Shown in pieces: positions 2,072 to 37,392 of a DNA stretch of 40,227 nucleotides; position 1 is the stretch's first letter; each line of letters starts with the position of its first letter. The notes beneath the pieces were generated by a model. That model saw only the letters and a program-made list of their open reading frames with translations. It did not search any database and was not told the origin of the DNA. A program made the translations under genes and the position numbers. Source of the stretch: a virus; the IMG/VR virus record IMGVR_UViG_3300025889_015384, positions 1-40,227 of that record; one strand, given 5' to 3'.

Positions 2072-2739
2072 TGTCAAGTAAAACTAGAATAGTAGATGAT
2101 AATAAGCAGGCTCTAATTGAGGATGGCGGATATATCCGTGTACAACCAGCACCTTTTCCACCTCAAGATGATAGAGATAAGCAGTTAATATTTCGTCAAT
2201 TTCTTACTTTAAATGGAGACGGAACAACTACTGATATGTTAGTGGATGGTTCTACTACTCCTCAAATATTTTCAATTGATGGTATTGCAAGAGCAGATAT
2301 TTACATTACTTCACTATCTTTTATTATAGCAGGAGATGGTATTGTATTAGGAGATGATTTTGCAGGTAGTGGAGCTGCTTTAACAAATGGAATGCGTTTG
2401 TATTATGAAGATAATAATGGTGAAGTAAATATAGGTACCTCTTTAACAACCAACTTTGATTTTATACGATTATGTCAAGGTAATCCTGCATTTGCAGATC
2501 CAACAGCCGGCCCATTTATCGCGCCTGCTATTCAAGGAGCGTCTGGTAAAGGTGTCTCCCCCGCAAATGGTATTCTTCCTGTACTAGATTTTCAGAAAAT
2601 ATTTGGATTCCAATACGGATTAAAAATTGCAAAAGGAACTAACAACAGATTAGTACTAGAGATTAATGACAACCTAACAACTGGATTAGGTGCAAATGCA
2701 GCATTTAACATCATTGCATATGGTTTTGAATTAAAATAA
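2071..2739 (+). CDS. Putative virion protein of unknown family
   Basis: This 222-residue protein begins with a segment reminiscent of the preceding family (RIVDDNKQALIEDGGYIRV) but lacks the DGTG and KGSS blocks. The rest is beta-rich, Gly/Asn/Asp-rich sequence (for example FSIDGIARADIYITSLSF and KGTNNRLVLEINDNL), typical of phage structural proteins. It overlaps the previous gene by one base and the SET-domain gene after it by one base, so it belongs to the same transcription unit. No catalytic motif or transmembrane segment is seen. Confidence 0.65.
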   Translation: MSSKTRIVDDNKQALIEDGGYIRVQPAPFPPQDDRDKQLIFRQFLTLNGDGTTTDMLVDGSTTPQIFSIDGIARADIYITSLSFIIAGDGIVLGDDFAGSGAALTNGMRLYYEDNNGEVNIGTSLTTNFDFIRLCQGNPAFADPTAGPFIAPAIQGASGKGVSPANGILPVLDFQKIFGFQYGLKIAKGTNNRLVLEINDNLTTGLGANAAFNIIAYGFELK

Positions 2740-3143
2740 TGTATTACCCTCCAACTAAAATATATGTGAAACCCGTAGAGGGTAAAGGTTTAGGAGTATT
2801 TGCACGAGAAGTAATTGCAGAAGGAGAAACCATAGAAATATGTCCTTTAATATCCTTAGGTAAAAACCCAGGCAATAAAACTCTAGATCCATTTTTCAAT
2901 TATCGATTTGGATATCCAAGAGAGGGAGCACATAACGGTAATCAAGATTTTGTAGTAGCTTGGGGATATGGCTCACTCTACAACCACTCACATTCTCCTA
3001 ATACAGATTGGATAGATCACCCTACAGAAAAAGCATTTCAGTTTGTTGCTATACGTGATATTAATGCCGAAGAAGAGCTATGTATAAATTATGGAGGTGA
3101 GCCATATTGGAAACATGGCCGGCAAGATATAAAAATAATTTGA
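2739..3143 (+). CDS. SET-domain protein (putative protein-lysine methyltransferase)
   Basis: This 134-residue protein is almost only a SET domain. GKGLGVFA (residues 15-22) is the N-terminal SET glycine motif, YNHSHSPN (81-88) matches the NHxxxPN S-adenosylmethionine-binding motif, and EELCINYGG (about 112-120) matches the C-terminal ELxxxYG motif with the catalytic tyrosine. SET proteins transfer methyl groups from SAM to lysine side chains. There is no post-SET cysteine cluster and no targeting domain. It overlaps the upstream virion-type gene by one base (TAATG), suggesting action on a virion or host protein made at the same time. The substrate is unknown. Confidence 0.85.
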   Translation: MYYPPTKIYVKPVEGKGLGVFAREVIAEGETIEICPLISLGKNPGNKTLDPFFNYRFGYPREGAHNGNQDFVVAWGYGSLYNHSHSPNTDWIDHPTEKAFQFVAIRDINAEEELCINYGGEPYWKHGRQDIKII

Positions 3144-21144: not shown

Positions 21145-22208
21145 TGCAGAATAAATTTCAGCGCCTATTCAATGAGTTACAGAAAGAAAAGGAATTAGGT
21201 CCGTCGGAGGTTAATGATAACATATTGATCTTCGACGGCCTAAATACTTTTATCAGAGCTTTCGGAGCTACACCTGCAACTAATGAAGATGGTGAACATA
21301 TCGGAGGAATCACAGGATTCTTGTTTTCTATAGGCAAAGTAGTAAGAGATCTAAAACCTAGCAGATGCATTATTGTGTTTGATGGCAGAGGCGGATCTAA
21401 ACGCAGAAAAACTATTTATAAAGATTACAAAGCTAACAGAGCTAACAAGACAAGACTGCGTAGACACGATCATCAAACGTTTGCTAGCATAGAAGACGAA
21501 CAAGAAGCAATGCGACATCAGTTTAGTCGGTTGGTTTCATATTTAGATTGTTTGCCGGTTACATTTCTAGCTATCGATGGTATCGAAGCAGATGACACAA
21601 TAACGTATATTGCAGATTATTATAAAGATATTGCTAAACGAATGACTATCGTGAGCACGGATAGAGATTTCTATCAGCTCGTATCAGAACAAATACAGGT
21701 GTGGAGTCCTATCAAAAAGCGCTTATACACCACCGAAACGGTTCTTGACGAATTTGGGGTTCACCCGAATAACTATGTTCTATATCGTTCGTTTACAGGA
21801 GATAAGAGCGACAATATTCCTGGCGTATCTGGTATAGGTCCAAAGACATTGCAAAAACTAATACCGGAGTTATCCGATGCCACAGAATTCACCCTGGATG
21901 ATTTGGTTGAAAAATCTGAGACGTTGTTAACAGAAAATAAAAAATATCAAAAGATTCTGGACAGTCATGACATTCTAGACAAGAATATACGTTTAATGAA
22001 TCTGAAATTGTTAGACATATCTGCAACACACGCTTCATCCATCAGAAACATTGTGGATTCTCCAATTCCAGGATTAAACAAACCAGAATTTCGCAGATTG
22101 TTTATGGAAGATAAAATGTGGACTACCATGAAGAATCTTCCTGATTGGTTGAACAATACCTGGCTATCTTTATATGCCTTCGCTCAACAAACACATGATT
22201 CCAAATAA
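21144..22208 (+). CDS. rnh: 5'-3' exonuclease/flap nuclease (T4 Rnh-like)
   Basis: This 354-residue enzyme removes RNA primers and 5' flaps. Metal-binding acidic motifs are in place: ILIFDGLNTF (about 27-36), IVFDGRGGSKRR (about 74-85), GIEADDTITY (about 145-154) and STDRDFYQL (about 170-178), followed by the helix-hairpin-helix GDKSDNIPGVSGIGPKT. It is slightly longer than T4 Rnh (305). It is coupled to UvsX at its start and overlaps a glycosyltransferase gene by 14 bases at its end. Confidence 0.9.
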   Translation: MQNKFQRLFNELQKEKELGPSEVNDNILIFDGLNTFIRAFGATPATNEDGEHIGGITGFLFSIGKVVRDLKPSRCIIVFDGRGGSKRRKTIYKDYKANRANKTRLRRHDHQTFASIEDEQEAMRHQFSRLVSYLDCLPVTFLAIDGIEADDTITYIADYYKDIAKRMTIVSTDRDFYQLVSEQIQVWSPIKKRLYTTETVLDEFGVHPNNYVLYRSFTGDKSDNIPGVSGIGPKTLQKLIPELSDATEFTLDDLVEKSETLLTENKKYQKILDSHDILDKNIRLMNLKLLDISATHASSIRNIVDSPIPGLNKPEFRRLFMEDKMWTTMKNLPDWLNNTWLSLYAFAQQTHDSK

Positions 22209-22854
22209 GATTAACTACATATGGCAAGGACCTTCTGCAATTGATAGAAAATACTTAGATAATGTCAATGAATGTTCCAGACTGAATCCTAGTTACCAAA
22301 TACATATATGGAAAGAATCTGATTGCGATAGTTTAATTGACAAATATACACAACGAGAAACATATGAAACATTATCAGGAATAAAAAGATATAATTTTAT
22401 TAAATATCTGATCATGCACGATCAAGGTGGAATATACACTGATTTTGATATTAAATGGAAAACATCATTTGATTTTTTAATGAATTTACCACATCGGTAT
22501 TCTGGGAGTAAATGGCCGGAGAATGTTGATTATAACTCTGATGCTAATTTATATTTTCCGTGTTATATCAAACAAGATGTTATACTTGCAGACGATCCGT
22601 TTTTTATATGTGCTCCAGGAATTATGTTAGAATGTTTAGAATTTTGTCATACGCGTAACGATTATAAGATAGATATTGAACTTTTTTATAAAACTGGTGT
22701 TAAGCGTATACATGAATCTGAACCATATGGTCCATACGGATTAACAGATTGGCTACAACAAAACAATATTCAATTCAATTTGTTCTTTTCAGAAGAAGTT
22801 ATAGAACGAAAATCATTATATGCTGAGCATGAAAATGAACAGCGTTGGAGATAA
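22195..22854 (+). CDS. GT32-type glycosyltransferase (DXD)
   Basis: The start is taken at 22195 (MIPNKINYIWQGP), the usual opening of GT32 sugar transferases, rather than the in-frame ATG 21 bases upstream. The 219-residue protein has the nucleotide-sugar-binding core IKRYNFIKYLIMHDQGG then IYTDFDIKW, with the DXD metal motif (DFD). There is no transmembrane anchor. It interrupts the replication gene order between Rnh and the helicase. The acceptor may be DNA, protein or a surface glycan; nothing in the sequence decides. It overlaps Rnh by 14 bases, looking like an inserted cargo gene. Confidence 0.8.
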   Translation: MIPNKINYIWQGPSAIDRKYLDNVNECSRLNPSYQIHIWKESDCDSLIDKYTQRETYETLSGIKRYNFIKYLIMHDQGGIYTDFDIKWKTSFDFLMNLPHRYSGSKWPENVDYNSDANLYFPCYIKQDVILADDPFFICAPGIMLECLEFCHTRNDYKIDIELFYKTGVKRIHESEPYGPYGLTDWLQQNNIQFNLFFSEEVIERKSLYAEHENEQRWR

Positions 22855-22863
22855 ATAAAAAAT

Positions 22864-23364
22864 ATGAAAATACTTATAAATCAAAAAGAAATAGATCAAC
22901 TTGTTCGGTCTGTTGCAAAACAGATACAGCAAGAATGGGATGCTAACACTGATAAAGTGTTTATATGTTTACTCAACGGCGGATACATGTTTTTTTCAGA
23001 TCTTGTTAAGCTGTTACCTGACAACATTGAATGTGATTTTATGCGTGTTAAATCATATCACAATAAAAAGCAAGGAGATATACAAATTACCAAAGATTTA
23101 GAAACTCCTATCAAAGGCAAAGATGTATACATTGTGGATGATATTTACGACAGCGGCAACACGGTAACGGCTGTCATTGAATACTTGAATGTTAAACATC
23201 CTAATTCAATTAACATTGTAACATTGATCACACGAGAATCTTCTCCGATACCAACAGTTTCTAGTTACCATGGCAAAACCATCGGCGAAGAATGGTTGGT
23301 TGGTTACGGAATGGACAACAGCAAAGGATACATGAGAAATAATCCGAATATTTATGCAATTTAA
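22864..23364 (+). CDS. Purine-type phosphoribosyltransferase (HPRT-like)
   Basis: This 166-residue protein has the PRPP-binding signature VYIVDDIYDSGNTV (about 88-101) and the usual early CLLNGGYMFFSDLV loop (about 38-51). The fold and length match hypoxanthine-guanine phosphoribosyltransferases, which join a purine base to PRPP. In a phage that makes modified guanines it could recycle guanine released by base exchange, or protect the pool from modified bases; both are inference. It starts 9 bases after the glycosyltransferase. Confidence 0.8.
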   Translation: MKILINQKEIDQLVRSVAKQIQQEWDANTDKVFICLLNGGYMFFSDLVKLLPDNIECDFMRVKSYHNKKQGDIQITKDLETPIKGKDVYIVDDIYDSGNTVTAVIEYLNVKHPNSINIVTLITRESSPIPTVSSYHGKTIGEEWLVGYGMDNSKGYMRNNPNIYAI

Positions 23365-27113: not shown

Positions 27114-27126
27114 TATGATACGATTA
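27089..27126 (+). repeat. 38-bp direct repeat, left copy
   Basis: The repeat starts TACTACGTTGAAAGATATTT and ends ATGATACGATTA. It covers the end of the cysteine-protein gene and the first four codons (M-I-R-L) of the GNAT gene. The right copy (27494-27531) is identical over all 38 bases. Confidence 0.95.
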
Positions 27127-27492
27127 CAAGATATATTATTCGACGACAATTCTAATATTTCGTTTGCTATAAAAACAACAAACAATGTAGACTATGTAAT
27201 ATATGCAAAAGTTAACAACAATATCGTAGGAGAATTGCATTTTATTAAAAGCAAATTTAAGCCAGTACTAAAAGGAACATCTGTTTCTGTAGATCCTAAT
27301 TATCAACGAAAAGGTATTGCATCAGCAATGTATGAGTTTGCAGAAAAAGAATTAGGTTTAAAATTTATAAAAAGTGATGATGCTTTAACTGCTGACGGCA
27401 AACTACTTTGGAATAATCCTAATCGAAAATTTGGAATTACAACAAAATATGATTTTACTGGTATAGATACGCCAGGTGATCCTACAATGTAA
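27115..27492 (+). CDS. GNAT-family acetyltransferase
   Basis: This 125-residue protein has the acetyl-CoA-binding motif SVDPNYQRKGIASAMYEFA (about 58-76) of GNAT enzymes, followed by KELGLKF and LWNNPNRKFG. The substrate is unknown. The N terminus MIRLQDILFDD resembles N-terminal head-targeting segments of phage internal proteins. The gene lies exactly between two identical 38-bp repeats, so one recombination event would delete it and join the next gene to the same leader. Confidence 0.75.
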   Translation: MIRLQDILFDDNSNISFAIKTTNNVDYVIYAKVNNNIVGELHFIKSKFKPVLKGTSVSVDPNYQRKGIASAMYEFAEKELGLKFIKSDDALTADGKLLWNNPNRKFGITTKYDFTGIDTPGDPTM

Positions 27493-27493
27493 T

Positions 27494-27531
27494 TACTACG
27501 TTGAAAGATATTTATTAATATGATACGATTA
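27494..27531 (+). repeat. 38-bp direct repeat, right copy
   Basis: This copy is identical to 27089-27126. Here the LKDIY-stop portion is no longer part of a gene, so the copy was created by duplication; it supplies the leader and the M-I-R-L codons of the next gene. Confidence 0.95.
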
Positions 27532-27936
27532 AAATCATTACTCGAAAATAATTATTATCCAAGCTTAGTATATCATTTCACAACAGCTCCGGGCCTAGTA
27601 GGCATCATAAATTCCAATAAATTAAAATCCGCAATGGGTAAATACGTGTCTTTTACAGACGATGAAAATTTATGGGCTTTTCAAGAATTTGAATCTGGCG
27701 ATGAAATTGGAGTTAGATTAGAATTTGGTAGTGATGATTTACCTCCATTATCACCTTATATATACCAAGGAGCACCAGGCGAAACATTTGAACATGAACA
27801 AGAATGGGTTTCAAAGTCTGGAGATATAATGAATATCGAAAATATCATAGTAGATATTACAGCACTCGAGTTTACAAAAACATATTTACGAGAAAATTTA
27901 CCAGGACATATATTTTCGTGGATTAAGTTTATATAA
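27520..27936 (+). CDS. ADP-ribosyltransferase-like phage protein
   Basis: In this 138-residue protein VYHFTTAPGLVGIINSNKL (about 17-35), YVSFTDDENLW (about 42-52) and FEHEQEWVS (about 91-99) form an H...YxSxT...E series like the ART/DarT/KptA fold, followed by IMNIENIIVDI. Similar phage proteins have HyT...iSfTRd...EaEEr patterns. Function is unproven: NAD-dependent modification of host or DNA, or a degraded relative. The N terminus MIRLKSLLENN again resembles a head-targeting propeptide, and T4 packages the ART Alt in its head. Confidence 0.55.
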   Translation: MIRLKSLLENNYYPSLVYHFTTAPGLVGIINSNKLKSAMGKYVSFTDDENLWAFQEFESGDEIGVRLEFGSDDLPPLSPYIYQGAPGETFEHEQEWVSKSGDIMNIENIIVDITALEFTKTYLRENLPGHIFSWIKFI

Positions 27937-27994: not shown

Positions 27995-28702
27995 ATGACA
28001 GATACTCAAAGAAAAAATCTAGAATTAGTACAGGCTGGTTTTGCGAACGGCATCTCGAGACATTTAGCAAACAAACAGGCAATGCACGGGCCAAATGCTC
28101 GGTTAACTGACGAAGAAAAACAAGAAATTATTGATGACGCAGCATTTCATTATGCAAAGTTTTTAATAGCATTAGGCGTAGACTTCCGAGAAGATCCTAA
28201 TTCTGCCGATACTCCACGTCGTGTAGCAAAAGCATATGTAAATGATTTATGGCGTGGACGATATGAGCCAATGTCAGATATCACTTCATTTCCGAGCGAT
28301 GGTTATGACGGAATTGTTTTCGAAGGAGGTATTCCATTAACATCGATGTGTAGTCATCATCATCAAACTATTGGCGGACTCGTGCATATTGCATATATTC
28401 CAGAAGAAAATGGTAATGTAGTTGGACTAAGTAAATTGAATCGTGTAGTTGAACATTTTGGAAGGCGAGGTGCTATTCAAGAACAATTAACTGTCGCAAT
28501 TCATCATGCAGTTAATGAACTTATTACGGATAACAAAGGAGTTGCTGTGATGATTGAAGCTACCCACAATTGCGTGTCATGTCGTGGTGTTAAGCATCAA
28601 GGAGCATCGATGAAAACTGCGAAACTATCCGGAGCATTTTTAGATGATGGCAACGCTCGATCAGAATTTTATCAATTTATAAAAGGTTATACAAATGTCT
28701 AA
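27995..28702 (+). CDS. folE: GTP cyclohydrolase I
   Basis: This 235-residue enzyme converts GTP to dihydroneopterin triphosphate, the first step toward 7-deazaguanines and pterins. MCSHHHQTIGG (about 118-128) gives the zinc Cys119 and His122 region, VGLSKLNRVVEHFGRR is the conserved helix, and HNCVSCRGVKHQGA (about 191-204) gives the second zinc cysteine. The length is close to bacterial FolE. It heads a tight operon with queD, an unknown gene and queE, overlapping queD by 8 bases, which points to deazaguanine rather than folate synthesis. Confidence 0.95.
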   Translation: MTDTQRKNLELVQAGFANGISRHLANKQAMHGPNARLTDEEKQEIIDDAAFHYAKFLIALGVDFREDPNSADTPRRVAKAYVNDLWRGRYEPMSDITSFPSDGYDGIVFEGGIPLTSMCSHHHQTIGGLVHIAYIPEENGNVVGLSKLNRVVEHFGRRGAIQEQLTVAIHHAVNELITDNKGVAVMIEATHNCVSCRGVKHQGASMKTAKLSGAFLDDGNARSEFYQFIKGYTNV

Positions 28703-29162
28703 ATTTCAATCAACAAAACTATTTGATGGATTCAGCACAGTGTTTCGTCAATGGCAAGCAGAAGGAACACATTGTAGGTTTTTGCATGGTTATGCAATAG
28801 AATTCAAAGTTACATTCGAAGGCGAATTAGATCATCGCAATTGGGTATGGGACTTCGGCGGAATGAAAAGAGCTAACACGAAGATTGATGGAATGTCTGC
28901 TAAAGAGTGGATGGACTATATGTTCGATCACACAGTTGTACTAGCAAAGGACGATCCGGAAAAGATATTCTTCGAAAACTTAGATGCAAAAGGAGCTATT
29001 CAATTACGATTAATGGATGGACCGGTAGGTGCCGAAAGGTTTGCTGAGTTTATATATAACAAGCTCAATAAGTTTGTGCAAGAAGAGACAGATGGTAGAG
29101 TGAGAGTTGCACAAGTAGAGTTTTTTGAGAACAGAAAAAATACAGCAATTTATGAAGAATAA
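28695..29162 (+). CDS. queD: QueD-like 6-carboxytetrahydropterin synthase (altered zinc ligands)
   Basis: This 155-residue T-fold protein would convert dihydroneopterin triphosphate to 6-carboxytetrahydropterin. HCRFLHGYAIEF (about 26-37) is the QueD C-xx-LHGH motif with the last His changed to Tyr, and the first zinc His (F-S-x-x-H) is Phe in FSTVFRQW. NWVWDFGGMKR and FDHTVVL keep the other conserved positions. I recall this variant in other phages, so it may be functional with a modified metal site. It overlaps folE by 8 bases. Confidence 0.85.
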   Translation: MSKFQSTKLFDGFSTVFRQWQAEGTHCRFLHGYAIEFKVTFEGELDHRNWVWDFGGMKRANTKIDGMSAKEWMDYMFDHTVVLAKDDPEKIFFENLDAKGAIQLRLMDGPVGAERFAEFIYNKLNKFVQEETDGRVRVAQVEFFENRKNTAIYEE

Positions 29163-29526
29163 TGAATCATTCATGTCCTTGTATGAGCATCGTGGCAATG
29201 CATCAAAACAATCTGGACTAGGACGACAAGTATTTAATGCAGCAAAAGAACAAGGTGTTGAAATCGTATACAGAGAACTACCACTCGAACTGCATCGAGA
29301 TGAATATAAAGGTGTGGCAACCTATCCGAAAGCTTTTCTAGATGAATATTTTGGAATTGTTACTGATACAGAACATCAACAGACATTGCAATCCCTCATA
29401 GAAATCAAAGAAAAAATAAAAGATTTGACATTGCAAATGGATGATATTATAAATAAATTAGGAATCAATGATACCAATAGTTATGAGCGAAATGATGAAT
29501 CAGAAGAAGACGACCTCCCATTCTAA
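29152..29526 (+). CDS. Unknown protein with an SSB-like acidic C-terminal tip
   Basis: The start at 29152 overlaps queD by 11 bases; a TTG 27 bases upstream is possible. The 124-residue protein has a conserved-looking domain (FMSLYEHRGNASKQSGLGR, then YPKAFLDEYF), a coiled coil (about 75-105) and the ending ESEEDDLPF, nearly the DDDIPF tip by which bacterial SSB recruits repair and replication proteins. It could compete for SSB partners or be recruited like SSB. The role is unknown. Confidence 0.65.
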   Translation: MKNNESFMSLYEHRGNASKQSGLGRQVFNAAKEQGVEIVYRELPLELHRDEYKGVATYPKAFLDEYFGIVTDTEHQQTLQSLIEIKEKIKDLTLQMDDIINKLGINDTNSYERNDESEEDDLPF

Positions 29527-30298
29527 AATAAAAAAATTAGAAGATTATGATAAAGTATTACCAGTAGTAGAAGTATATCCGTGTGTGCAATCAGAAGGTA
29601 GTCGACAAGGTAAACCTACCATTGCAATCAGAACGACCGGCTGCACACACAGATGTTTCTTTGGTGAAGGAGGTTGGTGTGACTCATGGTACACTTCAAT
29701 TCATCCAGATAAAGGAACATTTACATTCAATGACATTATTCGAATGTACGATGATCATCCTTATATCAAAGAAATGATGTTAACAGGCGGATCTCCTACA
29801 ATGCATGCATCTCTGGTTAACGAGCTAGTTAATTTTGCATCAACTCGAGGTATCGTGGTAACAATTGAAACAGAAGGCAGTCACTTTATTGAAACAGATT
29901 TGCCTATAGATTTAATTTCGTTGTCTCCTAAATTTTCCAATTCGGTACCGAAACTAGGAGAACTAACACCTGCAGGCAAAACTACGGATCAACGAATGAT
30001 TGATCAACACAATAAATTTAGGTTGAATCATGAAGCAATCAAGCAGACACTTAAATATCATTATGATTATCATTATAAACCTGTTTGGGATGGCACTGAA
30101 TATAATTTAGAGGAAATAGAAGAATTCAGAGTGTTACACAATATTCCAAAATCGAAAACTTGGATTATGCCAGCTGGAGATAACAGAGAAGAATTAATCA
30201 AGATGTATCCTAAAACAATTGAAATGTGCACCAAGCACGGATATAATTTTACAGGAAGAGAACATATCATTGCATACAATACGGAGAGAGGAGTATAA
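29468..30298 (+). CDS. queE: QueE-like 7-carboxy-7-deazaguanine synthase (radical SAM)
   Basis: This 276-residue enzyme makes 7-carboxy-7-deazaguanine from carboxytetrahydropterin. VYPCVQSEGSRQGKPTIAIR then TTGCTHRCFFGEGGWCDSWY shows the radical SAM cluster as CX3CX7C, a variant of the usual CX3CX2C with an insertion. MLTGGSPTMH is the SAM-binding GGEP-like motif, and VVTIETEGSHF and LSLSPKFSNS follow. The start is taken at 29468 (AGGA 4 bases upstream), overlapping the previous gene by 59 bases; ATGs at 29483 and 29492 are alternatives. Confidence 0.9.
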   Translation: MIPIVMSEMMNQKKTTSHSKIKKLEDYDKVLPVVEVYPCVQSEGSRQGKPTIAIRTTGCTHRCFFGEGGWCDSWYTSIHPDKGTFTFNDIIRMYDDHPYIKEMMLTGGSPTMHASLVNELVNFASTRGIVVTIETEGSHFIETDLPIDLISLSPKFSNSVPKLGELTPAGKTTDQRMIDQHNKFRLNHEAIKQTLKYHYDYHYKPVWDGTEYNLEEIEEFRVLHNIPKSKTWIMPAGDNREELIKMYPKTIEMCTKHGYNFTGREHIIAYNTERGV

Positions 30299-30628: not shown

Positions 30629-30928
30629 ATGAATATGAAACCATATGGTGATTTAGTTCTACTAAAAGAACGAGAACAAGTTAAAAAATCTAGCACAATT
30701 ATTATGTTACCTGGTGCTGATGGAGATTATGTATACGCAGATGTAGTCAAAGTAGGTCCTGGATTATACACTCATAACGGGGTGAAGATTCCAATGACAG
30801 TTCAACCAGGCGACACTGTTATGCTTCACAAAAGCAATGCTGGTGATCAGAAAAAAGTTATGCTCGAAGAAGTAGAGTATTTGTTGATCAGAGAATCCGA
30901 AGTGCTAATGATTTCTGAACCTGCATAG
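30629..30928 (+). CDS. GroES-like co-chaperonin (functional counterpart of T4 gp31)
   Basis: This 99-residue protein has the GroES plan: MKPYGDLVLLKERE at the start, a mobile-loop region SSTIIMLPG (about 21-29), YADVVKVGPGLYTHNG, GDTVMLHKSNAG and EEVEYLLIRESEVLMI at the end. Co-chaperonins cap GroEL; phage versions such as T4 gp31 help fold the capsid protein. An AAAAGG site precedes the start. MNM allows two starts six bases apart. Confidence 0.88.
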   Translation: MNMKPYGDLVLLKEREQVKKSSTIIMLPGADGDYVYADVVKVGPGLYTHNGVKIPMTVQPGDTVMLHKSNAGDQKKVMLEEVEYLLIRESEVLMISEPA

Positions 30929-34151: not shown

Positions 34152-34589
34152 ATGATAGGAATTATAGCAGGAAATTTTGACGTAATACATCCAGGATATA
34201 TTGCAATGTTCAATGAAATGAAACAGCATTGTGATCATACTTTAGTATTATTACACACAGATCCTACAATTGAACGACCAGAAAAATGTAAACCGGTATT
34301 GTCAGTTGAAGAACGGTTAGCTATATTGCATTCATTACGGCAAGTAGATGAAGTTCACACATACACCACAGAAGCAGAGTTATATGATTATTTAAAAAAT
34401 TTATCGGCTGCATTATCGTCCAGAAAAACAACTATTAAAAGGTTCTTAGGTGATGATTATAAAGGCCGAGCATTTACAGGCGATGATTTAAATATACCAA
34501 TTCATTATATAAACAGAGACCATGGTTGGTCTACCACTAAATTTAAAAAACAAATTGCAGATGAAGTATTCAATAGTAGTAACGTTTAG
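34152..34589 (+). CDS. Cytidylyltransferase-like nucleotidyltransferase
   Basis: This 145-residue protein has the nucleotidyltransferase opening IIAGNFDVIHPGYIAMF (about 4-20; HxGH varied to HPGY), SVEERLAILHSL, then KRFLGDDYKGRAF and INRDHGWSTTKFKKQI, matching the ISTT/(R)TS motif of CTP:glycerol-3-phosphate-type enzymes. It activates a phosphorylated substrate with CTP or ATP. Next to a glycosyltransferase it may make an activated donor. The last His of HxGH is Tyr, which may alter activity. It overlaps the next gene by 29 bases. Confidence 0.8.
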   Translation: MIGIIAGNFDVIHPGYIAMFNEMKQHCDHTLVLLHTDPTIERPEKCKPVLSVEERLAILHSLRQVDEVHTYTTEAELYDYLKNLSAALSSRKTTIKRFLGDDYKGRAFTGDDLNIPIHYINRDHGWSTTKFKKQIADEVFNSSNV

Positions 34590-34905
34590 CATCGAAGGAT
34601 TTCACAATTGGCCGGAGGCAGCAGAAGTATTTCCAGAAGTAGGGTTTCTGTCTGACAGACACCGACATATGTTTGGTTTTCGTTGTTATGCAAAGGTAAC
34701 TCATACGGATCGAGATGAAGAATTTATTTTAATGCAACGCAGAATCAAGCAGCAACTCAGAACTAATTTTGGCGGTAACATATTAGAGTTTGGTCGAATG
34801 AGCTGCGAGGATATAGGTGAATGGTTGTTAGAAAACAATTACAATCTGTATCGAGTAGAAGTATTTGAAGATTGGGAAAACGGTGCAATTATAGAACGAG
34901 ATTAG
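34561..34905 (+). CDS. T-fold (QueD/PTPS-like) protein, second copy type
   Basis: The start is taken at the ATG at 34561. The 114-residue protein has VTFSIEGFHNWP (about 7-18) and SDRHRHMFGF (about 31-40), which can be read as the F-x-x-H and HxH zinc ligands of the pterin-synthase fold, and VTHTDRDEEFILMQRRI, then EVFEDWENGAII. It lacks the Cys before HxH that QueD uses. I have seen such HRHxF proteins in phages without a known function. It may bind a pterin or deazaguanine intermediate. It lies between the cytidylyltransferase and the glycosyltransferase. Confidence 0.6.
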   Translation: MKYSIVVTFSIEGFHNWPEAAEVFPEVGFLSDRHRHMFGFRCYAKVTHTDRDEEFILMQRRIKQQLRTNFGGNILEFGRMSCEDIGEWLLENNYNLYRVEVFEDWENGAIIERD

Positions 34906-34906
34906 G

Positions 34907-34935
34907 TTGGATAACCCATATTATTTTCTTACAAT
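34907..34935 (+). promoter_or_regulatory. Sigma70-like promoter of the glycosyltransferase-DpdA operon
   Basis: TTGGAT (34907-34912), a 17-base spacer and TACAAT (34930-34935) fill the gap. It follows the stop codon TAG exactly as at 16464, giving the shared string TAGGTTGGATA. Confidence 0.65.
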
Positions 34936-34940
34936 AAGTT

Positions 34941-36143
34941 ATGACAAATAAAGATATTAGAACAGTATGGTATTTCGGCCTGGAACCACTCAAGGCCCGT
35001 TATACTTATCAATTATCAAAAGAGTGGATGCCAGCAACCTTTGCTCCATATGAGAAAGCTGGTAAACTTAAATTCGTTGATGTTCCAGGAGAGTTTGATC
35101 CAGATCAGCAAATCAAAGTAGGTGCAGTATTAGATGCGGTAGGCCGAGGTAAGTTTGCCATGTCGCAATGCAGCAACTTTCTGGATATGCTGAATATAGA
35201 TCAAGTTAAAGACGGAGATGTATTATTTCTTCAAGACTATTGGCATCCAGGTATTGAATCTATATTATATGCATTAGACCTATATGGTATCAATGTTAAG
35301 ATATACGCAATGCTTCATGCACAATCAGTAGATGAATATGACTTTACTTGGCCGATGCGCAGTTGGATGCGAGGCTTTGAATTAGGATTAGACAAACGAA
35401 TGACAGGAATATTTGTTGGATCTACAGTGCATCGAGATCAACTCAGAGCTGCAGGATTTGAAGCTACTATACATGTTGTTTCATTGCCGTTGCATAAACA
35501 ATTAACAGAAGCCAAACTACCAGGATACCAGAAAAATGAATGGATTAAGAAACCAGTAGTAGTTTATTCAAGCAGATTAGACAAAGAAAAGAATCCATTC
35601 TTCATGATGCAGGTAGCCGAAGAATTTTTAAATCAAAATGAAAATTGGGAATGGCACGTTACCACATCAGGTAAATCATTCAAGTCAATGCTACCAGGCG
35701 TAATAGAAGCAATGAATGAATTGGCAAACAGACAACCCAGATTCAAATTGTTAAGTAATCTGACAAAAGAACAATATTATACAGAGTTAGCAGATGCAAA
35801 GATTCAGTTTAATAGTTCACTGCAAGACTATGTTTCCTGGACAGTGTTAGAATCAACTACATTTGGTTGTGATGTAATATTTCCAGATTTCAGGTCATTT
35901 CCAGAGTTTGTACCTGCAGATAAATTATACAAACCATTTAATTTGCAGTCTGCACTATACGTTTTAAATCAGAACAGAACAAGCAATCGCACAGGAATAT
36001 ATTATAACTATCCAGATCTGGCAGACTTAGGTCGCAGAATGGAAGCATATATCATCGCAAATGATGTTACACAAGAAATCAATGTGTGGCATGAATCTGC
36101 ATATTGCGAACATTTATTAAACACACAAGGAATATATGAGTAA
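34941..36143 (+). CDS. GT-B fold glycosyltransferase, coupled to DpdA
   Basis: This 400-residue protein has an N-terminal Rossmann-like half (LFLQDYWHPGIESILY about 93-108, YAMLHAQS) and a C-terminal nucleotide-sugar half: PVVVYSSRLDKEKNPFFMM (about 205-223), FNSSLQDYVSWTVLESTTFG (about 292-311) and DFRSFPEFVP, the E-x7-E-like region of GT4-type enzymes. There is no membrane segment. It overlaps the DpdA-like gene by 8 bases (ATGAGTAA), so the two are probably made together. T4 alpha-glucosyltransferase, which acts on DNA, is also GT-B and about this length. Action on deazaguanine DNA is inference. Confidence 0.8.
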   Translation: MTNKDIRTVWYFGLEPLKARYTYQLSKEWMPATFAPYEKAGKLKFVDVPGEFDPDQQIKVGAVLDAVGRGKFAMSQCSNFLDMLNIDQVKDGDVLFLQDYWHPGIESILYALDLYGINVKIYAMLHAQSVDEYDFTWPMRSWMRGFELGLDKRMTGIFVGSTVHRDQLRAAGFEATIHVVSLPLHKQLTEAKLPGYQKNEWIKKPVVVYSSRLDKEKNPFFMMQVAEEFLNQNENWEWHVTTSGKSFKSMLPGVIEAMNELANRQPRFKLLSNLTKEQYYTELADAKIQFNSSLQDYVSWTVLESTTFGCDVIFPDFRSFPEFVPADKLYKPFNLQSALYVLNQNRTSNRTGIYYNYPDLADLGRRMEAYIIANDVTQEINVWHESAYCEHLLNTQGIYE

Positions 36144-37392
36144 GAAAGATTTTTTATACATTCCATCGTTATCTGCCGGGAGTATGGTGTCGGCATTCAA
36201 GAAAGACACCAAGTTCTCAGACGGAACCACGATGAGATTCTTTTCAGAAGAATATCCAGAAAAATGGAGACATCCGTATTTCCTGGTAACTGCAGGACAT
36301 CATTACAAGAAAATGGATTTCAGACAGCAACTAGGATTAGGAGCCGGTACATTTGTATTTGGTGACTCCGGAGGATTCCAGATTGCAACTGGTGCACTTA
36401 AGTGGGATGGTACCATCAGAGAAAAGATATTTCATTGGTTAGAAGCTAATTCAGACGTAGCAGCCAATTTAGATATACCACCGCGCGTAACATTTGAAAA
36501 TCGTTTCAATGATGCAATGGATATATCATTTGATAATTTTAAATGGTTTGAAAAGAATCAATCTGGCAAGACAAAATTCTTAAATGTAATACAAGGAACA
36601 TTTAATGAAGAATATTCTACCTGGTATCACAAGTTCAAAGATTTTGATTTTAACGGTTGGTGTATTGGTGGTCCTAAGAAGCTAGTAGATTTCATGTATG
36701 TGATTGCACTAATGCTGCAAGAGCGAGAATTTGAAAAGAATCATGTGCAATATATTCACTTACTAGGTATTTCAAAGATATCTGATTTCTTTATATTGGG
36801 AACTATCCAGCATTTACTAAACGGATTAACCGGAGGACGAGTGCAACTTATGTCAGATTCATCATCTCCAGGTCAGTATCCAGTATTTGGTACATATTTG
36901 CATTCAAGCAATTACAAGACACAGACATTCACTGAATTGTATTTTCCAAAGAATGCCGAGTATCGCAGAAAGACACACATCAAACAAGGTAAAGAAGGAA
37001 CTGTAGATATTGATAAAACTAAACATGTTGCATGTAGTATTGATTGTCCAGCATGTAAAGATTTTACCTATGAATATCTAGGAGGTCAGACTGCAACCGG
37101 CTTAGACAGATATTCACAAGAAGGTATGCCTAGAATGGTAGTTCATAATGTGCATGTATACTGCGAAATGGTTAAGGATATTAATAAATTGACTGAGCAC
37201 CATGTAGAATTACTAGAAACGGTGCTACCTAAGGACCTATATGATGTTATATTATCATTGCATGAAATGTTTGCCGATCCAGCAGCAGCAATGAAAGTGT
37301 ACTCGACATATAAAAAGACATATAAAAAGTATGGTGGTGATAGCATATCAACTACCGATGTTAACAAATTCAACGAATTCTTTAAATTTTAA
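36136..37392 (+). CDS. dpdA: DpdA-like DNA/tRNA-guanine transglycosylase
   Basis: This 418-residue TGT-superfamily enzyme exchanges guanine for a 7-deazaguanine. GDSGGFQIATG (about 76-86) is the base-binding DSGGFQ motif, NVIQGTF (about 150-156) the VQGG-like loop, WCIGGPKK (about 175-182) the GGLAVG equivalent, and QLMSDSSSPGQ (about 237-247) carries the candidate nucleophile Asp. CSIDCPAC then H about 30 residues on is the structural zinc site (CX3CX2C-H). Phage DpdA proteins act on DNA rather than tRNA. The synthesis genes folE, queD and queE lie upstream in the same window. Confidence 0.88.
   Translation: MSKKDFLYIPSLSAGSMVSAFKKDTKFSDGTTMRFFSEEYPEKWRHPYFLVTAGHHYKKMDFRQQLGLGAGTFVFGDSGGFQIATGALKWDGTIREKIFHWLEANSDVAANLDIPPRVTFENRFNDAMDISFDNFKWFEKNQSGKTKFLNVIQGTFNEEYSTWYHKFKDFDFNGWCIGGPKKLVDFMYVIALMLQEREFEKNHVQYIHLLGISKISDFFILGTIQHLLNGLTGGRVQLMSDSSSPGQYPVFGTYLHSSNYKTQTFTELYFPKNAEYRRKTHIKQGKEGTVDIDKTKHVACSIDCPACKDFTYEYLGGQTATGLDRYSQEGMPRMVVHNVHVYCEMVKDINKLTEHHVELLETVLPKDLYDVILSLHEMFADPAAAMKVYSTYKKTYKKYGGDSISTTDVNKFNEFFKF

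Follow-up and report, generated by a model that had tools for sequence, protein, structure and literature searches.

A glycosyltransferase linked to DpdA across phage genomes: possible sugar-decorated 7-deazaguanine DNA

Two strategies of phage DNA modification are known, each on its own: sugars, which are carried by hydroxymethyl pyrimidines, and deazaguanines. In T4, alpha- and beta-glucosyltransferases act on 5-hydroxymethylcytosine. Phage DNA with dCDG or 7-deazaguanine was reportedly described by Cui et al. in 2023, together with the prediction in phages of DpdL, a decarboxylase of 7-carboxy-7-deazaguanine (CDG). According to PMC6884629, the genome of phage nt-1 contains dPreQ0 and the nt-1 protein YP_008125322 defines the family DpdA2. 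In the huimycin cluster of Kutzneria albida, a glycosyltransferase (GT) was proposed to put N-acetylglucosamine on the 2-amino group of a 7-deazaguanine (PMC7439116), and this is therefore a proposed precedent for a GT acting on the 7-deazaguanine ring. We analysed a window of 40,227 bases, which is the whole IMG/VR virus record IMGVR_UViG_3300025889_015384 and a fragment of its own genome. In this window, a GT gene lies between a gene encoding a T-fold protein and a gene of DpdA/TGT type (Table 1).

The window shares with the dPreQ0/dG+ phages (9g, nt-1) the genes for FolE, QueD and QueE as well as a DNA guanine transglycosylase from one and the same superfamily, and three other phages with the GT (ACP17, X1 and BUCT-ZZ01) use the DpdA2 family itself. 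None of the 11 viral genomes found to carry the GT, however, had QueC above the cut-off, and the T-fold protein and the GT were present instead. The points in common with T4 are a GT-B enzyme and a proposed sugar-decorated phage DNA, but here the base and the chemistry would be different and the GT is GT4-like. The dCDG/7-deazaguanine phages share the QueC-less branch from CDG, and no sugar is known to have been described there. The huimycin cluster also combines FolE, QueD and QueE with a GT proposed for 7-deazaguanine, but according to PMC7439116 it has QueC, gives a small-molecule product on the free base and shows no DpdA among the cluster genes listed. We consider it rather probable that the module of the window is a phage 7-deazaguanine DNA-modification branch that stops at CDG and ends in a sugar. 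No description of a glycosylated DNA deazaguanine was found in the literature searched, which may miss papers; the initial annotation, too, knew of no description of such a hypermodification.

Viral contigs were scanned with the GT and with the DpdA as queries, and the best 80 of 153 and the best 80 of 280 relatives, respectively, were kept. The loci from both scans (L006-L146, several contigs being present in both), the window (L005) and four named phages (L001-L004) made up 146 loci, 144 of which contained the GT. DpdA was the next gene after the GT in 135 of the 139 loci with at least 700 nt downstream (5 of the 144 GT loci were left out); the other four were the named phages, with another gene order or a different DpdA. 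The GT was upstream of DpdA in 128/129 DpdA loci with at least 700 nt upstream (14 of 143 left out). GT-DpdA is a stable operon within one large lineage, a pattern that common ancestry could explain on its own. Sampling was also performed from the T-fold protein, with its profile and ACP17 first, own profiles being used for the neighbours and the best 80 of at least 591 viral relatives being retained. Flanks of 4 kb or more were available on either side in 49 of these loci, and there the GT lay within 6 kb in 46, the window-type DpdA in 43, FolE in 40 and QueC in none. Over all 80 loci, the GT was present in 68, each time on the same strand as the T-fold gene (68/68), and QueC in 0. When the DpdA profile was used (best 80 of at least 593 relatives), the T-fold protein and the GT were both present in 31/31 loci that extended 2 kb or more upstream and 5 kb or more downstream; over all 80, the counts were 72 for the T-fold protein, 62 for the GT and 0 for QueC. 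The counted loci are mutually related and are not independent trials, and each best 80 comprises those nearest to the query. A chance neighbourhood was rejected on the recurrence in well over a hundred loci (some contigs occur in more than one scan) as well as in named phages that are unrelated and differ in gene order.

Distant phage records are stronger evidence than the close-relative loci. The gene order is DpdA, GT (1-base overlap), T-fold, QueE in PA5oct; QueD, FolE, a gene x, DpdA2, GT (4-base overlap), T-fold, QueE, primase/helicase in ACP17; FolE, GT, DpdA2, T-fold, QueE in X1; QueE, QueD, FolE, a second GT, DpdA2, T-fold, GT in BUCT-ZZ01, a phage of Synechococcus elongatus PCC 7942; and T-fold, GT, FolE, QueE in Phosso. 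The GT of BUCT-ZZ01 is 37% identical to that of the window, those of ACP17, X1 and PA5oct 27%, 26% and 23%. ACP17, X1 and BUCT-ZZ01 carry a DpdA of phrog_10773; this family has the nt-1 gene YP_008125322 as a match (E 9.1e-213) and is DpdA2. The GT and T-fold pair accompanies two distantly related DpdA types, that of the window and DpdA2. Conservation of the GT-DpdA pairing across phage genomes, which the initial annotation had named as a check, was strongly borne out, with both DpdA types and several gene orders. The thymidylate synthase family includes dCMP hydroxymethylase. A gene of this type (PF00303) was present in 5 of the 11 GT carriers and was not found in ACP17, X1 and BUCT-ZZ01, whose records are titled complete genomes, so a T4-style acceptor is unlikely in these three phages. 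The passages searched in papers on PA5oct-like phages contained nothing on restriction or modification of their DNA.

A set of 24 (named phages, 18; large IMG/VR contigs, which may be incomplete, 6) served to compare the occurrence of the T-fold protein and of QueC. QueE was found in 24/24 of these viral genomes or contigs. A strong T-fold match was found in 16, two very weak matches (14.3 and 14.6 bits) being scored as absent. The GT was found in 11, all among those 16 (0/8 without the T-fold protein), and all 11 GT carriers have DpdA. QueC was above the cut-off in 8/8 genomes without the T-fold protein (Peetri, pf16, nt-1, Ps15, 1.081.O, F86, D484 and 2.275.O, several of which are related to one another), in 1/16 T-fold carriers (D479) and in 0/11 GT carriers. 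The one-sided Fisher test for T-fold against QueC gave 1.2e-5, which overstates the association because several of the 24 genomes are close relatives. The T-fold protein and QueC nearly exclude each other in the viral genomes tested. Ps15 and ACP17, which are distant kin according to PMC9025141, illustrate this: the order in Ps15 is FolE ... QueC-DpdA2-QueE ... helicase, with QueC just upstream of DpdA2, whereas in ACP17 the GT and the T-fold gene are behind DpdA2. Because no QueC was above the cut-off in the carriers tested, the base is probably CDG or a derivative and not preQ0. We conclude that an exit from the pathway at CDG is probable for GT carriers, provided that their hosts do not contribute QueC.

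The T-fold open reading frame was listed from 34522, and the ATG at 34561, where aligned relatives begin, was taken as its start. It had no Pfam match, and a PDB sequence search with its profile gave a best E of only 0.34. Its AlphaFold2 model (predicted local distance difference test score, pLDDT, 94.7) had Escherichia coli QueD as the top PDB match (Foldseek E 1.7e-6), with Z 12.7, a root-mean-square deviation (rmsd) of 2.2 over 106 residues and 18% identity. In a 38-row alignment (A9), H15, H34, R51, E54, S81, E83, E103 and D104 were conserved in 38/38 rows and H36 in 37/38. H15, H34 and H36 could be metal-binding, and E103 sits in the region where QueD/PTPS enzymes hold the pterin. The catalytic Cys, 3-4 residues before a conserved His, was kept in the six QueD rows aligned. 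The T-fold rows have Phe/Tyr (28/10) and Leu (38/38) at the equivalent positions, as judged by motif order and not by coordinates, and no Cys in 28 to 36; unlike the six QueD proteins, they have no Asp-His motif. Because both features are absent, the T-fold protein should not make 6-carboxytetrahydropterin (CPH4) in the usual way. It is a QueD-fold protein which, according to its model, may bind a guanine-like ring, and it could be the predicted decarboxylase DpdL. A role as the working QueD of the pathway was rejected, as the window has a separate QueD and the catalytic Cys is gone, and so was an obligate complex with the phage QueD, the same QueD type being present in pf16 without the T-fold protein. 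GT-less T-fold genes lie near FolE in loci L149, L151, L147, L150 and L152, and a deoxynucleotide monophosphate kinase is an additional neighbour in L149 and L151. The T-fold forms the C-terminus of a longer protein in L150 and in L152, and in the latter an endonuclease VII-like domain precedes it.

The GT matched PF00534 and PF13692, both below cut-off, and its first NCBIfam member scored 12.6 bits for a cut-off of 300. Its AlphaFold2 model (mean pLDDT 93.2) has a GT-B fold with two Rossmann-like domains. The 50 structural matches listed include GT4-type and other GT-B enzymes at Z 21.9-26.8 (best match Z 26.8, rmsd 3.3 over 337 residues), and the nearest solved structures are GT4-type, among them sucrose-phosphate synthase, BshA, MshA, SenB, the teichoic enzyme TarM and tetrahydrobiopterin glucosyltransferases (Z 23.5 and 23.3, many GT4 enzymes being similar or higher). 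A structural match confined to lipopolysaccharide or teichoic acid transferases, which had been named as a refutation, was not what emerged: these GT4 neighbours have many acceptors. The T4 alpha- and beta-glucosyltransferases were absent among the 50 matches listed, although a family not listed could still match. In a viral library, the model matched a 370-aa protein without a name and the GT of ACP17 best, and rank 36 (E 1.5e-8) was taken by a protein of cyanophage S-TIM5 that is named DNA alpha-GT. In a 53-row alignment (A8), R212, K217 and E304 were invariant and position 296 was always acidic (E 28, D 25); we take these Arg/Lys and EX7E residues to be the donor-site motifs of GT4 enzymes. 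Residues E15, R20, Y21, D99, D134 and E147 of the N-terminal half were also invariant and form a candidate acceptor site. In BUCT-ZZ01, a second GT4-like gene (L002 6010-7353; PF13692 E 3.4e-5, below cut-off) lies between FolE and DpdA2 and may perhaps mean a second sugar.

The DpdA of the window matched PF01702 (TGT) at 29.9 bits for a cut-off of 26.3, and a PDB sequence search with the window-type DpdA gave no match. Its D77 and D113 were kept in 17/17 divergent rows, and D241 and H337 in 16/17 each, so the DSGG-Q motif and the further Asp are present. The zinc site (C300, C304, C307 and H337) was invariant in 20 close rows, and its Cys columns were kept in only 1-2 of the 17 divergent rows; the zinc site is therefore a feature of the lineage of the window's DpdA.

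When the T-fold profile was run against bacterial and archaeal genomes, 27 loci emerged; many come from metagenome bins, in which viral contigs may be included. The GT was found in 23/27, DpdA of either type in 16/27 and QueC in 0/27. On a 424-kb contig of Magnetospirillum aberrantis SpK, the GT, the T-fold gene, DpdA, a small open reading frame and a QueD2-like protein are consecutive (L331 5170-10899) and adjoin a CoiA-nuclease-like protein and, as named by eye, two-component genes. Methylobacterium frigidaeris (L324 90-4697) has a piece of DpdA near the locus edge, the T-fold gene, the GT and sub-threshold Vut_1 and CoiA-like matches; the Vut_1 family includes queuosine-precursor transporters. 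These loci may be prophage remnants or may represent a cellular sugar-deazaguanine system.

FolE, QueD and QueE make CDG, as is established for the pathway. In place of QueC, the T-fold protein would bind and process the deazaguanine base, perhaps by decarboxylation. DpdA, judged by its family, would swap guanine in DNA for the processed base, and the GT would use a nucleotide-sugar to glycosylate the 7-deazaguanine, most likely once this is in the DNA, as T4 does with hydroxymethylcytosine. The sugar would protect the DNA from nucleases. Candidate sugar sites are the carboxylate of CDG and, on 7-deazaguanine, C7 and the 2-amino group. The GT-DpdA linkage, the near-exclusivity of the T-fold protein and QueC and the predicted fold all support the possibility, raised in the initial annotation, that the phage may glycosylate its deazaguanine.

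Several points weigh against a sugar added to deazaguanine in DNA. The proposed pathway is read from gene content, linkage, near-exclusivity with QueC, two modelled folds and conserved motifs, and plain 7-deazaguanine has no hydroxyl for ordinary O-glycosyl transfer. The GT of the window is acidic, with an isoelectric point (pI) of 5.5 and a net charge of -9, and the median pI of the 53 rows is 5.5 as well, which is not as expected of a DNA-binding enzyme; the DpdA rows are acidic too (median pI 5.9 in 17). Hosts may supply QueC: 6/7 whole genomes behind module-bearing bacterial or archaeal loci have a QueC-family match elsewhere above the cut-off, four of them full length, as expected of queuosine makers. 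D479 has the T-fold protein and a partial QueC match of 32.8 bits and may be a real exception, because the annotated QueC of Ps15 scores similarly (30.8 bits, partial). In X1, a QueC-like stretch scores below threshold, and a PAPS-reductase-like protein is encoded close to FolE. The DpdA of Phosso is about 170 kb from the T-fold and GT genes. The T-fold protein occurs without a GT of this family in RHph_I1_18, Ahp1, Bakedbeans, D479 and MA9V-3 and therefore has a role independent of the GT; these carriers fit a T-fold protein that makes the base, with the sugar as a further step. Among 13 of the 80 loci of a further GT scan (L243-L255), the ten distant loci L246-L255 all have the GT and no DpdA of either profiled type (10/10); the T-fold protein and FolE are present in 9/10, L250 having the GT alone. 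The relatedness of the counted loci, with the kept 80 of each scan nearest to the query, also counts against it.

TGT-type pockets, which are known to accept small 7-substituents, would need to hold a sugar, and T4 DNA glycosylation is post-replicative, so it is doubtful, though possible, that the GT acts on the free 7-deazaguanine base or on a deazaguanine nucleotide and that DpdA inserts an already glycosylated base. The acidity of the GT and of the T-fold protein would suit such a route, as would the tetrahydrobiopterin glucosyltransferase, a GT4 enzyme for a pterin, among the structural neighbours, and the huimycin pathway, for which glycosylation of small-molecule 7-deazaguanine was proposed (PMC7439116). 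We regard it as very unlikely that the GT makes a pterin glycoside unrelated to DNA. The cyanobacterial tetrahydrobiopterin glucoside pathway likewise comprises FolE, a PTPS-like protein and a GT4 enzyme; here, the T-fold protein matches the QueD/PTPS fold, the GT resembles tetrahydrobiopterin glucosyltransferases among many GT4 enzymes, and in the ten distant loci the GT occurs although neither profiled DpdA type was matched. However, QueE, a consumer of the pterin, was found in 16/16 T-fold carriers of the 24 genomes, DpdA in 11/11 GT carriers and the GT in 31/31 loci of the DpdA-first sampling, and the T-fold protein has no PTPS-type catalytic Cys.

The GT could also glycosylate another target (a host surface polysaccharide, a virion protein or another DNA base) and be merely co-transcribed with DpdA. 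Most GT4 enzymes act on surface polysaccharides or small molecules, the structural neighbours include TarM, and a thymidylate synthase family enzyme accompanies some GT carriers. This is nevertheless unlikely, since the association spans very different phages, two DpdA types, several gene orders and bacterial loci, the GT was never found without the T-fold protein in the 24 genomes, and ACP17, X1 and BUCT-ZZ01 showed no thymidylate synthase-type gene. A TGT-type enzyme together with a GT also points to tRNA, glycosylated queuosine being present in animal tRNA, and the whole module might make a queuosine-like modification there and not in DNA. We hold this to be highly improbable, as the window contains no tRNA gene and the GT and T-fold pair goes with DpdA2, whose nt-1 member accompanies genomic dPreQ0 (PMC6884629). 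A joint extension of the preferred reading, DNA deazaguanine bearing a sugar, is put forward as a speculation that we ourselves rate as doubtful. The viral DNA would contain a C-glycoside, the T-fold protein decarboxylating CDG to give a nucleophilic C7, DpdA inserting 7-deazaguanine and the GT making a C7-sugar bond, and the GT-T-fold-DpdA set of Magnetospirillum and Methylobacterium, next to which a CoiA-like protein is encoded, would serve the cell for self-marking or as a restriction-type system based on sugar-deazaguanine DNA.

The 7-deazaguanine genes of the window are listed in Table 1.

Table 1. Genes of the 7-deazaguanine neighbourhood in the window
Feature	Coordinates	Strand	Evidence
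FolE, GTP cyclohydrolase I	27995..28702	+	PF01227 E 6.9e-45; phrog_2197
QueD, 6-carboxytetrahydropterin synthase type	28695..29162	+	PF01242 E 1.1e-14; phrog_2389; Cys and Asp-His motif kept
QueE, 7-carboxy-7-deazaguanine synthase-type radical SAM	29468..30298	+	phrog_2076 E 5.3e-48
Nucleotidyltransferase, cytidylyltransferase-like	34152..34589	+	PF01467 E 9.9e-11; phrog_7878 E 3.5e-30
T-fold protein, QueD paralogue without catalytic Cys	34561..34905	+	phrog_17812; AlphaFold2 pLDDT 94.7
GT-B, GT4-like glycosyltransferase (GT), 400 aa	34941..36143	+	AlphaFold2 pLDDT 93.2
DpdA / TGT-type transglycosylase, 418 aa	36136..37392	+	PF01702 above cut-off; shares 8 bases with the GT

The open reading frames agree with the GT-DpdA overlap described in the initial annotation, and FolE, QueD and QueE, also named there, were all found by Pfam or PHROG match. 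On the + strand, FolE-QueD-QueE (27995-30298) are followed by the polymerase, an unknown gene, the nucleotidyltransferase, the T-fold gene, the GT and DpdA; 3' of DpdA are a weak sliding-clamp match, a dUTPase-like gene and a clamp loader, the last named by eye from the sequence. The GT had been placed behind a cytidylyltransferase and a T-fold protein; both are there, but the cytidylyltransferase is not a fixed part of the locus and the T-fold protein is the more faithful partner. The nucleotidyltransferase had a tblastn match in 50/146 loci, the upstream reach being too short to tell in some, and it was missing in 13 loci spanning FolE to the dUTPase-like gene. It was rejected as a core part and is an optional accessory that may activate the donor sugar. 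A PDB sequence search with the window's QueD gave no match. Phage QueD proteins (window 28695-29162, alignment A10) have STK...HGY where the Magnetospirillum QueD has His...HGH, and two usual metal His of QueD seem to be replaced in them.

The window has T4-like phage genes (tail sheath, baseplate hub, UvsX-like recombinase, DnaB-like helicase and ribonucleotide reductase), and the top match of its DNA polymerase among the phage records listed is Microcystis phage Mel-JY01 (43.2%). A second glycosyltransferase (22174-22854; PF04488 Gly_transf_sug, above cut-off) has a phosphoribosyltransferase (22864-23364) directly 3'; it was matched in 0/11 GT carriers, and the control matched nowhere either. 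Other genes encode a SET-domain protein (2739-3143; PF00856 E 3.2e-15) and, in the stretch from QueE to the polymerase, a Cpn10-type co-chaperonin (30629-30928). A protein of 138 aa that matches Tox-ART-HYD1 weakly and below threshold (E 0.011) lies beside a GNAT acetyltransferase (27520-27936 and 27115-27492). Both open with a similar MIRL-x-x-[LI]L leader, which we take to resemble the leader of capsid-injected T4 internal proteins. The Tox-ART-HYD1-like protein had a tblastn match in 1/146 loci, many of which do not reach that far. PADLOC gave 0 matches for 10 proteins at E 0.01.

The viral loci with the module number well over a hundred, several hundred more relatives of its parts were counted, and the module also occurs in phage isolates whose hosts are named and in contigs of bacteria. 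Judging from these genes, many viruses and a few bacteria with this module probably carry sugar-decorated 7-deazaguanine DNA. Because cultured carriers exist, specific masses and gene deletions are testable now. If the proposal is true, the module joins the sugar and the deazaguanine strategies of phage DNA and would represent an extensive class of DNA hypermodification that is still uncharted and includes two enzymes whose functions are new.

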